Positions 46,486 to 50,169 of a DNA stretch of 64,000 nucleotides are shown here, piece after piece. Source of the stretch: Verrucomicrobiales bacterium (GTDB lineage: Bacteria; Verrucomicrobiota; Verrucomicrobiae; Limisphaerales; UBA1100); assembly GCA_002721895.1 (NCBI GenBank), contig PBLV01000046.1, positions 17,540 through 81,539 on the forward strand. Direction: 5' to 3'. Numbering within the stretch: position 1 is the stretch's first letter; each line of letters begins with the position of its first letter. A program made the translations under genes and the position numbers. Under the pieces are notes generated by a model that saw only the letters and a list, made by a program, of their open reading frames with translations, was not told where the DNA came from and did not search any database.

Positions 46486-47287
46486 GTCGTAGATAGAGCC
46501 ACGTTTCCAACGGGCGCAATGGACGCAGCCAGTTGTAAAATGGCGAATGCACCAAGCGCAGGCGCACGACCGAGAGAAACATCACCAGAGACACGCGCCA
46601 CAGATTGGCGGTCACCTTGGAGCCCAGCTGATCAGTCCATTCGATGGGCACTTCCTTGATGGTGTAGCCGCGTTGCTTGAGCGACACGAGCAGGTTGACG
46701 TCAAACGCCAGATCGGCGATGCGCAGGCTCTCAAGAATTTCCTCCAACGCCTCGCGCCGCACGAGCTTGGCGGGGCATTGGGTATCGGCGATGCCCTGCC
46801 AGAAGAGCAGCTCGACAATGGTGTGAAAGCCGCGGCTGAACACGCGCCGCAGTTTGGTCTGGCTCTGGTGCAGCACGGAGCCGGGCAGCCAGCGCGATCC
46901 GATCACACAATCGGCCTCGCCAGCCGCGCAGTGCTTGATCAGCTCATGAAACGCCTTGGCGGGTGTGGCCCCATCGGCATCCACGTACCCGGTCAATACC
47001 GCTTCGGCTTCCGTCGCCTTTTTGAAGCCCTCGATCAAGGCGCCACCCTTGCCGATGGGCGCCTCGAAATTGAGCGGCTCGATCTCGGGATATTCGTCCG
47101 CCACTTCCTCGACAATCCCCAGTGTGTTGTCGCGGCAACCGTTGAGCACGACCACCGCGCGGAATTCGCCCTCGTAATGTTTCCGAAAATACTCGGCGTA
47201 ATCGCGCAGCACAGGCCCAATGCGTTCCTCCTCATTGTAGGCGGGGATCAGCAGCAGCACGCTGGGTTGAGCTTGCGCGTCGGCCAT
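46394..47287 (-). CDS. Family 2 glycosyltransferase (dolichyl-phosphate sugar synthase-like)
   Basis: A 297-residue GT-A glycosyltransferase. LLIPAYNEEERIGPVL is the start, VVVLNGCRDNTLGIVEEVAD the nucleotide pocket, TGYVDADGATPAKAFHELIK the DxD-like acidic motif (DAD), and CVIGSRWLPGSVLHQSQTKL a following block. There is no terminal membrane helix, so it is a soluble or peripheral enzyme of the DPM1/GtrB-like group, probably loading a sugar on a polyprenyl phosphate. Its ATG overlaps the priA stop (TAATG). Its Pro/Glu-rich tail overlaps the flippase tail on the other strand by 92 bases. Confidence 0.88.
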   Translation of the reverse strand: MADAQAQPSVLLLIPAYNEEERIGPVLRDYAEYFRKHYEGEFRAVVVLNGCRDNTLGIVEEVADEYPEIEPLNFEAPIGKGGALIEGFKKATEAEAVLTGYVDADGATPAKAFHELIKHCAAGEADCVIGSRWLPGSVLHQSQTKLRRVFSRGFHTIVELLFWQGIADTQCPAKLVRREALEEILESLRIADLAFDVNLLVSLKQRGYTIKEVPIEWTDQLGSKVTANLWRVSLVMFLSVVRLRLVHSPFYNWLRPLRPLETWLYLRLNAPPPRPAKDSHPAETEPTEASPPDSPPK

Positions 47288-50169
47288 TACAACAGGTTCA
47301 CCGGGTCAATATCCACCGTCAACGTCACCTCCTCCGGCAAAGCCAATCCTGCCGTCACCTCTGCCAACCCGCGGCTCAGCGCCGACATCTGCCCCGTCCG
47401 CAGCATGATTTGATACCGGTAAAACGCCTCCGCCCGCAGCAGCGGCGCCGGCGCCGGGCCCGCGATCACCAAGTCCGCAATCCCGCCCGCCAGCGGCTCG
47501 ACCGCCTTCTTCAAGTGCTCCGCCGAGAACGCCACCTTCTCCTCGTTGCGCCCGCGCAGCGTCAGCATCGCCGCGCGCGTGTACGGCGGGTATTTCAGCT
47601 GCCCGCGAAACTCCATCTCCGCGTCGTAAAACCCCGCGAAGTCGTGCCGCCGCGCGAACTGGATCGCCGGGTGAAACGGCGTGAACGACTGCACGATCAC
47701 CTCGCCCTCCACGTCGCCGCGCCCCGCGCGCCCTGCCACCTGTGTTAAAAGCTGGAACGTCCGCTCGCCCGCGCGGAAGTCCGCCAGGTGCAGCCCCGTG
47801 TCCGCGTACACGATGCCCACCAGCGTCACGCGCGGAAAGTGCAGCCCCTTGGCAATCATCTGCGTGCCCACGAGGATGTCGATCTTCCCGCGCCGAAAGT
47901 CGCCGAGGATGCGCCGGTAATCCTCCTTGCGCTTCAGCGTGTCCGAGTCCATCCGCCGGATCGCCGCGTCCGGGAACAGCTTGCCCAGCACGTCTTCCAC
48001 CTTCTCCGTGCCCAGCCCGTGGAAACGAATCGCGCGGCTGCGGCATTCCGGGCACTCCCCCGGCGCGCGTGCCCCGTGCCCGCAAATGTGGCAGCGCAGC
48101 GCCTGCTCCCGCCGGTGGTACGTCAGCGACAAGCTGCAGTTCGGGCACTCCGCCACGAACCCACACTCCGGGCACTGCATCGACGTCGCAAACCCGCGCC
48201 GGTTTAAAAACAGGATCGTCTGCTCCCCGTTTTCCAGCCGGTCGCGGATTGCCTCCTTTAAACGCGTCGAGAAGATCGGCACGCCCTTGTCCTTGCGGCA
48301 CTCCGTCCGCATGTCTTGGACCCGCACCACCGGCATCCGCTTGTCGTCTGCCCGGAGCGGCAGGTCGAGCACCGCATACTTGCCGCGTTCCACATTATAA
48401 AAACTCTCCAGCGACGGCGTCGCCGATCCCAGCACCACCACCGCCCCCTCGCGCTGCCCGCGCACCACCGCCACGTCGCGCGCGTGGTACCGCGGTGCCT
48501 CCTCCTGCTTGTACGAGTGCTCGTGCTCCTCGTCCACGATCACCAGACCCAGCGGCTCCGCCGGCGCGAAGATCGCCGACCGCGCCCCGATGACAATCCG
48601 CGCCCGCCCCTGCCGAATCTTGTGCCACTCGTCATGCCGCTCCCCCGCCGAAAGGTGGCTGTGCAGCACCGCCACCAGCGTCTGCTGCGGCCCCGAGCTG
48701 AACCGCGCCTTGAACCGTTCCACCGTCTGCGGCGTCAGCGAAATCTCCGGCACCAGCACGATCGCCCCCTTCCCCAGCTCCAGCGCCCGCGCAATCGCCT
48801 GCAAATAAACCTCCGTCTTCCCGCTCCCCGTGACGCCGTTTAACAGGAACGTGCCACCCGTGCTGCCGGCATCTTGCCGGCAGGCCGAAGGCACTACAAA
48901 CGAACCCTTTCCCAAAATCCACCCCTCCCGCAACCCAGCCTTGCCCGGGTTCCCCTCGATATAATCCCGGTACTTTCGATAACGGTTTTCATCCCGCACC
49001 AAGTGGTCAAAATATTCGTCCTTCCAGAACGCCCCGGAAGTCTCAAGCAGCTTGTTCGCTTGCTTTGCCGTGAAAGACTTCCAAGAATGCACAATCTTGG
49101 ACAATTTCTCCCCCTCCATCGGCCGCACCAGCACATGCACATGATTCGGCATGATGACATATTCGCCCAACTGATACCGGCCGCCGTCAAACTTGCGCAA
49201 TGCTTCCTCGACCATTTGTCCCACTTCCGGTCTTCCCAAGGCGCAGCTGCCGTGCCCGGCATCCAGCATTTTCTCCATCTCGCCGGTGAATCGCCGGATA
49301 TGCTCCGCGCGCACCTTTTCCGTCCAAGGCTTGGGATTGTGGTTTTCCCAGATCTTCTTTTCCTCCTGCCAGGCACGAAGCTGGTCTTGTGCGATGGAGT
49401 CGTGCAGGCGAAAGGTCACAAAATAGATTTTGTCCTCCTGCCTCCAGTGGGGCAGCGCGCCGGAGAATTTTTTTGTGTCGGCTTTTTTGTTGAAGAATGG
49501 AGTGCCTGGGGGTTCTGCCGGCAAGATGCCGGCAGCACGATCCATCGACGCCAGAATTTCCCGCAGCGCCTCCGCCTGATCCGCGTTCAAGTCCAGCGGC
49601 TGGGTCGGGATGATCTGCGCGTTGGCGTAGGGGTCGCGCTCCGAGATTTGCGGCGCCACCTCCACCAGCCCCTTGTCCTCCAGCCGGCGCACCGTCTGTG
49701 CCGTCGTGCCCGTCAGCCGCAGCAGCTCCTGCATCGCGATCGAACGGTGTTCCTCGATGACGTGGTACACCTCCGCCTGCCGCTTGGAGAGTTCTGTCGC
49801 GTCGCCGTTCACCGGCAGCAGCCGCACGAAGAGCCGCTCGCGCCAGCCCTCCTGCTCCTTGCGCACCGCGTCGGGCAGCACGCTCTTCATGGCCGTCTCC
49901 GGCGCGCAGCAATAATACTCCGCCATCCACCGCGCCAGCTCCAGCACCCGCGGCGTCACCAGCGACTGCGCCCCGATGACTTTCAAAATGGGTTTTAACG
50001 AATCGTGCTCCGAATTCTCCGCCAGCCCCGTCACGCACCCCAGTACCTGCCGCCGGCCGAAGGGTACCTTCACGCGCGTGCCCACCTCCACGCGCCCGTC
50101 CAAATCCGGCGGGATGAGGTAATCAAACTCCTTGCGCAGGGCAATCTCGAGCGTCACTTGCGCGACCAC
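47287..50169 (-). CDS. priA: Primosomal helicase PriA with an in-frame RAYT transposase insertion
   Basis: A 960-residue replication-restart helicase interrupted in frame. Residues 1-210 are the 3'-DNA-binding and winged-helix parts (LRKEFDYLIPPDLDGRVEVG, LTGTTAQTVRRLEDKGLVEV, LDLNADQAEALREILASMD). Residues 211-437 are a REP-associated tyrosine transposase with flanking REP text. From 438 PriA resumes: FLLNGVTGSGKTEVYLQAI (Walker A at 445-452), LGLVIVDEEHEHSYKQEE (DEEH), VVVLGSATPSLES, eight zinc cysteines (CPECGFVAECPNC, CHICGHG, CPECRS), and GTQMIAKGLHFPRVTLVG. Removing about 227 residues gives about 733, against 732 in E. coli. GTG 50169 is chosen over the upstream TTG 50214. All core PriA motifs look intact. 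Confidence 0.92.
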   Translation of the reverse strand: MVAQVTLEIALRKEFDYLIPPDLDGRVEVGTRVKVPFGRRQVLGCVTGLAENSEHDSLKPILKVIGAQSLVTPRVLELARWMAEYYCCAPETAMKSVLPDAVRKEQEGWRERLFVRLLPVNGDATELSKRQAEVYHVIEEHRSIAMQELLRLTGTTAQTVRRLEDKGLVEVAPQISERDPYANAQIIPTQPLDLNADQAEALREILASMDRAAGILPAEPPGTPFFNKKADTKKFSGALPHWRQEDKIYFVTFRLHDSIAQDQLRAWQEEKKIWENHNPKPWTEKVRAEHIRRFTGEMEKMLDAGHGSCALGRPEVGQMVEEALRKFDGGRYQLGEYVIMPNHVHVLVRPMEGEKLSKIVHSWKSFTAKQANKLLETSGAFWKDEYFDHLVRDENRYRKYRDYIEGNPGKAGLREGWILGKGSFVVPSACRQDAGSTGGTFLLNGVTGSGKTEVYLQAIARALELGKGAIVLVPEISLTPQTVERFKARFSSGPQQTLVAVLHSHLSAGERHDEWHKIRQGRARIVIGARSAIFAPAEPLGLVIVDEEHEHSYKQEEAPRYHARDVAVVRGQREGAVVVLGSATPSLESFYNVERGKYAVLDLPLRADDKRMPVVRVQDMRTECRKDKGVPIFSTRLKEAIRDRLENGEQTILFLNRRGFATSMQCPECGFVAECPNCSLSLTYHRREQALRCHICGHGARAPGECPECRSRAIRFHGLGTEKVEDVLGKLFPDAAIRRMDSDTLKRKEDYRRILGDFRRGKIDILVGTQMIAKGLHFPRVTLVGIVYADTGLHLADFRAGERTFQLLTQVAGRAGRGDVEGEVIVQSFTPFHPAIQFARRHDFAGFYDAEMEFRGQLKYPPYTRAAMLTLRGRNEEKVAFSAEHLKKAVEPLAGGIADLVIAGPAPAPLLRAEAFYRYQIMLRTGQMSALSRGLAEVTAGLALPEEVTLTVDIDPVNLL
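48860..48883 (-). repeat. REP palindrome at the 3' side of the RAYT insert
   Basis: CTGCCGGCA (48863-48871) and TGCCGGCAG (48875-48883) form a perfect nine-pair stem with a TCT loop, preceded on the plus strand by GTG (48860-48862). Read in the priA frame it gives CRQDAGST. The whole 24-base unit is the exact reverse complement of the one at 49515-49538. Confidence 0.93.
49515..49538 (-). repeat. REP palindrome at the 5' side of the RAYT insert
   Basis: CTGCCGGCA (49515-49523) and TGCCGGCAG (49527-49535) form the same nine-pair stem with an AGA loop, followed by CAC. Read in the priA frame it gives RAAGILPAE. It is the exact inverted copy of the REP at 48860-48883, so the transposase domain is bracketed by mirror-image REPs. 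Confidence 0.93.

Follow-up and report, generated by a model that had tools for sequence, protein, structure and literature searches.

A RAYT transposase domain between inverted REP-type palindromes, read in frame inside the PriA helicase of a Verrucomicrobiales bacterium

The stretch analysed here, a 64,000-nt piece of contig PBLV01000046.1 from a Verrucomicrobiales bacterium (assembly GCA_002721895.1; hereafter the window), carries a priA gene whose reading frame contains a transposase domain of the RAYT type (REP-associated tyrosine transposase, TnpA-REP; REP stands for repetitive extragenic palindrome). A first-pass annotation, made from the letters of the window, had described a single unbroken frame joining the two halves of PriA and an HUH domain, and this is what we find. 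The frame is open over 975 codons from its earliest possible start and over 960 codons from the GTG start (Table 1), with no interruption, and a database protein of 960 aa (P0002) is 100% identical to the fusion. Pfam detects PriA_3primeBD, DEAD, Helicase_C, Zn_ribbon_PriA and PriA_C, with Y1_Tnp in the middle, each above its cut-off, and the NCBIfam score for the PriA equivalog also exceeds its cut-off; the 3′ DNA-binding, DEAD, zinc-binding and C-terminal domains, taken with the equivalog score, identify the host as PriA. Eight cysteines of the zinc region, noted earlier as complete, show no variation across 61 aligned PriA rows. Most insert-free relatives listed are 735 or 736 aa long, in agreement with the ∼733 expected for the protein without its insert. 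A search of the window with an insert-free PriA (P0124) found no second priA within these 64 kb.

Table 1. Features of the fused priA gene (positions in the window; all on the minus strand)
Feature	Position	Strand	Remarks
priA with in-frame RAYT insert	47287..50169	minus	one frame, 960 codons, GTG start at 50169
PriA N-terminal part (3′ DNA-binding domain and region after it)	49540..50169	minus	codons 1-210; PF17764; tblastn with P0124 residues 1-210; 4nl4
Inserted element	48859..49539	minus	681 bp = 227 codons (codons 211-437); perfect 25-bp inverted repeat at both ends
REP-type palindrome, 5′ end of element as read	49515..49539	minus	encodes RAAGILPA
RAYT (TnpA-REP) transposase domain	48895..49509	minus	no stop codon of its own in frame; PF01797, 36.4 bits (cut-off 23)
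HUH motif PNHVH	49135..49149	minus	sequence; invariant in nine-row alignment A1
Candidate catalytic Tyr (YIEGNP), codon TAT	48961..48963	minus	sequence; invariant in nine-row alignment A1
REP-type palindrome, 3′ end of element, inverted copy	48859..48883	minus	encodes CRQDAGST
PriA helicase half: Walker A (48814-48837), zinc-binding region, C-terminal domain	47290..48858	minus	Pfam; 4nl4; tblastn

The earlier estimate of about 227 codons with the frame kept proved exact for the segment bounded by the two 25-bp repeats, which begins on a codon boundary (as computed from the frame and the repeat coordinates). Its GC content is 55.8%, compared with 67.2% in the C-terminal part of PriA. The repeat palindrome, TGCCGGCATCTTGCCGGCA, has no further copy in the window at up to three mismatches (chance mean 0.06). 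At the 5′ end of the element, residues 1–210 of the insert-free P0124 align with positions 50169–49540, the last of these being one base outside the repeat. The second aligned piece of P0124 (residues 201–736) starts at 48885, a few residues inside the element, so the 3′ end is not fixed by this alignment. Among structures in PDB, PriA (4nl4) matches residues 2–213 and 439–957 of the fusion, and TnpA-REP (4er8) matches residues 318–417; the latter (E 6e-5) is the sole PDB sequence match of the RAYT part at E up to 1.

Both motifs claimed for the insert, HUH and the candidate tyrosine, are present. The tyrosine, whose counterpart in 4er8 is the leading Tyr of DYIYINP, is the candidate catalytic residue. 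The insert has two marks of a RAYT, a Y1 domain with HUH and Tyr and inverted REP palindromes on its flanks. A GTAG at the REP foot is absent, the window repeat starting with CGTGC; GTAG occurs at the same PriA site in two other fusions (L107 and L109). With the NCBIfam model REP_Tyr_transpos the window insert scores 69.3 bits, below the cut-off of 80, and we therefore regard it as related to RAYTs but outside that equivalog; an alanyl-tRNA synthetase (P0016) and an IspG (P0056) carry in-frame inserts that pass, with 132.9 and 140.3 bits. In a structural model of the fusion, which had been proposed as a check, the RAYT is predicted to form a domain of its own, tethered by two flexible linkers that the REPs encode, and the fold of PriA is predicted to be preserved. 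Structure comparison of the model returned a list filled by helicase chains with no TnpA fold in it; this is uninformative and carries no weight either way.

The same loop of related PriA proteins is occupied, again as had been suggested for checking. In 52 of 53 aligned PriA–RAYT proteins the insert falls within the interval 202–217 in the numbering of an insert-free reference, directly before the strand leading into Walker A; the one exception is an N-truncated protein (11 of 64 proteins, which did not align as PriA, were omitted). Where both flanks could be recognised in other hosts, the RAYT likewise sits between the same two motifs: 30 of 30 DinG, 4 of 4 RecG and 7 of 7 UDPGP-family proteins. 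The length of the PriA loop varies even without a RAYT, and in one protein (L122) the loop holds a REP-like peptide only. A target motif in the form of a shared junction tetranucleotide was not seen by eye, with no statistical test made.

Insert-free alleles, whose existence was to be checked, do exist. Insert-free PriA proteins are 94–96% identical to the PriA of the window (P0122, for one, 95%), and over the helicase part alone identity reaches 98%. We built a tree from the helicase parts of 179 PriA proteins, 56 insert-bearing and 123 insert-free (parts shorter than 480 residues omitted, and L127, a remnant described below, labelled by hand as insert-bearing); it requires at least 21 changes between presence and absence, 16 of them forced by starred branches. 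Two marks of a homing element, alleles that lack the insert and its repeated arrival at a single site, are found here.

Inserts do not always follow the descent of their hosts. Among 23 pairs of hosts at least 0.90 identical, inserts are less than 0.70 identical in 11, and there are PriA hosts 97% alike whose inserts are 64% alike. L107 and L109 carry a different RAYT with a GTAG-type REP at the same PriA site; these two inserts are 91% identical to one another and 43% identical to that of the window over 108 residues. Counting codons that conserve the residue, 28 of 169 differ between L107 and L109 in the insert, compared with 63 of 136 in the host before it and 169 of 476 after it (p 7e-8); in the next 100 codons 34 of 93 differ (p 4e-4). 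The smaller number of synonymous differences in the insert indicates that it is younger than the split of the hosts.

RAYT lineages cluster by host gene: in a tree comprising 194 RAYTs the host label has to change 28 times, compared with 108.5 when the labels are shuffled. Labels were assigned by text patterns (the truncated PriAs P0032 and P0057 became ‘fused_other’), rows without a matching HUH string dropped out, and L145/L146 (duplicates), L156, L158, L164, L171 and L172 are omitted; of 120 listed stand-alone-length proteins 53, on contigs above ∼3 kb, were picked by eye. One clade of 61 rows holds 51 PriA inserts, with four RecG inserts and two stand-alone copies inside it. The latter two, P0194 (60% identical to the window insert) and P0195, are RAYTs of stand-alone length on long contigs and are possibly escaped or out-of-frame copies. 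We rejected the idea that the family is confined to genes: stand-alone-length relatives occur at 41–60% identity and stand among the fused ones in the tree, where the ‘solo’ label needs 19 changes, with the proviso that many of them are on short contigs and may be fragments.

The first-pass annotation knew of no described case and treated the fusion as a lone one. This did not survive the search, which yielded dozens more PriA fusions plus RecG, DinG, AlaRS (alanyl-tRNA synthetase) and other hosts. With residues 225–452 as query and proteins of 0.55–1.75 times the fusion length as targets, 1662 proteins were found at E 0.001 or better; hosts among the 120 matches listed include PriA, RecG, DinG/Rad3-type helicases, CarB, AlaRS, IspG and UDPGP-family proteins. 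Insert-bearing proteins that still score over curated cut-offs for their host families include AlaRS (P0016), IspG (P0056), CarB (P0070) and ClpB (L157), as well as the α subunit of DNA polymerase III (L163, a contig fragment). In ClpB (L157:325-3519) the RAYT lies between the two ATPase halves; in the polymerase (L163:3-2039) the contig starts within the in-frame RAYT. Four frames have two RAYTs each, at different places: P0016 (AlaRS), P0056 (IspG), P0045 (DUF1156-type) and P0003 (methylase-type). Two hosts named by eye were put aside: for L149, taken as a methylase, Pfam gave no host family, and the RAYT frame L155:37-2313, taken as a deaminase, has an N-terminal part matching the CRISPR-associated family Cas_NE0113.

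In 146 genomes of the order to which the nearest comparison genome belongs, we observed 82 matches in 52 genomes. Frames longer than 450 codons surround 21 of the 23 best matches and six of the other 59, a division made after the list was seen. An intact RAYT of this kind in PriA is present in two of the 146 genomes (G064 and G092), with a remnant in a third (G062), so that per genome the PriA insert is rare. One RAYT match (G002:C530:1488-2096) has one TGA within a 621-codon frame and is perhaps a broken in-frame insert. A large PriA frame does not always mean a RAYT, several holding only long linkers or an upstream extension. A scan of genome contigs with a RAYT alignment used patterns that were too general and returned 80 loci over many phyla.

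The REP of the PriA insert is numerous in its carriers: 125 copies in G064 and 36 in G092, compared with 13 and 14 in two insert-free kin of G064 (G126 and G102) and 0 or 1 in the reversed control. For the GTAG REP, two carriers have eight and four copies and each of four insert-free genomes has none. In the PriA loop of G064 (L108) the RAYT has a REP pair on each side, four REP copies of 25–26 nt in all, and inverted REP pairs 100–150 bp apart are scattered throughout this genome. As to the state of the transposase, HUH is retained by all 53 PriA inserts found by similarity and the Tyr motif by 52 of them; the search started from an intact RAYT, which favours intact motifs in these counts. 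The PriA of G062 (L127), which was found through its PriA part, has at the same site a RAYT remnant without HUH in a frame that is still open, and this is a fossil stage of the insert.

The annotation had left two readings side by side, a tolerated passenger and a helicase–nuclease fusion, and the former is the better supported. We consider it probable that the REP-flanked RAYT in the PriA loop is a selfish passenger, like an intein that does not splice, which passes from one priA allele to another and whose frame is preserved because PriA is needed by the cell. Arguments for this are the uninterrupted frame, the inverted REP-type ends without a mismatch and the fixed PriA site, together with the near-identical insert-free alleles, the repeated changes of presence, the inserts at odds with host descent and the RAYT lineages that follow the host gene. 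The element is thus likely to survive by hiding in genes that the cell needs; in contrast to an intein, it has no apparent way out of the protein. Several observations weigh on the other side. Identities of hosts and inserts are correlated (Mantel r 0.64, reached in 0 of 2000 permutations, for 46 of 49 PriA fusions, shorter hosts being left out), so that much of the spread looks vertical. At fourfold sites the age difference in L107/L109 is weaker (21 of 94 sites differ in the insert, compared with 38 of 74 and 77 of 243 in the two host parts; p 0.012 when these are pooled), and in the DinG pair L151/L154 the insert is not younger than its host (pS, the proportion of synonymous differences, is 0.21 in the RAYT core and 0.12 in the host). 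Both trees are quick ones without bootstrap, with rows chosen by similarity. The native loop of insert-free kin (GEEKK, or a 16-residue loop) is absent at the insert flanks, so that the insertion need not have been a clean one without loss. Seven other Y1-transposase matches occur in G064, which is also the larger genome, so the PriA copy need not drive the REPs there. Finally, the ratio of nonsynonymous to synonymous rates (dN/dS) in the RAYT core is 0.06–0.30 in five of seven pairs, the other two being saturated and some dS values exceeding 2; a low ratio could reflect use of the RAYT for the host.

Such use is what a functional helicase–nuclease would imply, with PriA bringing the RAYT to stalled forks, where it would cut or edit single-stranded hairpins for the host. 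The near-complete set of HUH and Tyr motifs and the dN/dS below 1 fit this, as does the presence of several replication and repair proteins among the hosts (PriA, RecG, DinG-type helicases and DNA polymerase III α). We nevertheless hold it to be unlikely, given at least 21 presence changes with insert-free alleles 98% identical in the helicase part, a same-site remnant that has lost HUH, hosts with no tie to DNA such as CarB, ClpB, IspG, AlaRS and a UDPGP-family protein, and motif counts biased by the way the sample was found. Somewhat less likely still is a single ancient insertion into a PriA ancestor followed by vertical descent, many losses and faster evolution of the insert. It would account for the one site in 52 of 53 fusions, the Mantel correlation, the 51 PriA inserts in one clade of 61 rows and the vertical behaviour of DinG L151/L154; it is at variance with the L107/L109 inserts, which synonymous codons show to be younger than their hosts and which represent a different RAYT with a different REP, with hosts 97% alike whose inserts are 64% alike, and with RecG inserts inside the PriA clade.

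Removal of the insert from the protein by intein-like splicing or by proteolysis, leaving separate PriA and RAYT, is very improbable in spite of the intein-like position beside the P-loop and two linkers that are predicted to be floppy. Inteins start with Cys or Ser and end with His-Asn; the insert starts with RAA and ends with ST, and neither an intein nor a homing endonuclease domain is among the Pfam matches of the fusion (E 0.001). With no splicing domain and no in-frame stop, we set aside the intein and two-product readings alike. An artefact of assembly or binning is hardly credible: the protein cluster of P0002 has eight members on three contigs, and at least 52 further PriA fusions come from several sources.

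If the RAYT is a passenger, its first entry may have been a RAYT-mediated insertion of a REP-bounded unit. Passage between related priA genes would then occur mostly by recombination in the flanks, with a rarer jump into another gene such as RecG. The PriA-borne RAYT would act in trans on REP DNA throughout the genome, and with time it may degenerate, leaving a remnant or nothing but REP peptides.

Inteins reside in frame in conserved proteins, often those of replication, and are loyal to their sites and patchy in distribution. Those with homing endonucleases resemble the present inserts in all three respects, in-frame residence, site-loyal lineages and patchy presence, and differ in that our insert has no splicing or homing endonuclease match in Pfam and is predicted to stay in the protein. 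A fungal mitochondrial rps3 is described as fused in frame to a LAGLIDADG gene without splicing (PMC7902536), so that there, too, the nuclease of a mobile element shares a reading frame with its host protein; in that case the enzyme is LAGLIDADG and the setting mitochondrial, whereas the present inserts are HUH transposases that bring their own REP ends and lie inside the host protein in many bacterial genes.

Among the closest known systems is the REPtron, a RAYT with its REPs and REPINs, with which the element shares the HUH and Tyr domain flanked by inverted REP-type palindromes and a REP family spread through the genomes of carriers. The published picture of RAYTs is one of domesticated genes, present in single copy, inherited vertically and not copying themselves (PMC8049555); in contrast to that description, the inserts studied here occupy host proteins in frame and appear and disappear at fixed sites. 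REP recognition and the weight of GTAG have been treated for three systems (PMC8266576). In-frame REPs are known, many in genes of DNA synthesis and repair, and intragenic GTAG repeats are most numerous in a verrucomicrobium, Opitutus terrae (PMC3733652). Like the Rickettsia palindromic elements, these are palindromes read in frame within proteins; they are repeat-only inserts, 20–30 residues long in many cases and 43–82 in clusters, whereas here a whole transposase lies between the repeats, and the relevant parts of that paper report no whole in-frame RAYT. A few Y1 proteins of unexpected length have been put down to fused genes or faulty annotation and excluded (PMC6006769). We found no earlier report of a whole RAYT within a host protein in a literature consulted mostly as titles and openings of abstracts, with few subscription papers and bioRxiv outside its scope.

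Only a few ways are known for a mobile gene to reside in a protein without destroying it, and the finding extends them to an HUH transposase, in hosts that include DNA polymerase III α, AlaRS, ClpB, CarB, PriA, RecG and DinG-type helicases, and it runs counter to the picture of RAYTs as non-copying genes passed on by vertical descent. It raises the question of how a host protein tolerates a 200-residue enzyme beside its ATP site. There is also a warning for annotation: a large protein that bears the name of a ‘RayT’ fusion is probably an invaded allele and not a new function. We suggest tentatively, at somewhat short of even chances, that these inserts form a class of mobile elements of their own: HUH transposases permanently resident as in-frame domains of needed proteins, never spliced, with each lineage loyal to one loop of one gene, homing between alleles of that gene and serving a genome-wide REPIN population. 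If this is true, they would be ‘translated passenger’ transposons, as far from ordinary insertion sequence elements as inteins are from introns, and genes such as priA would provide a protected home for the transposase of REPIN populations.

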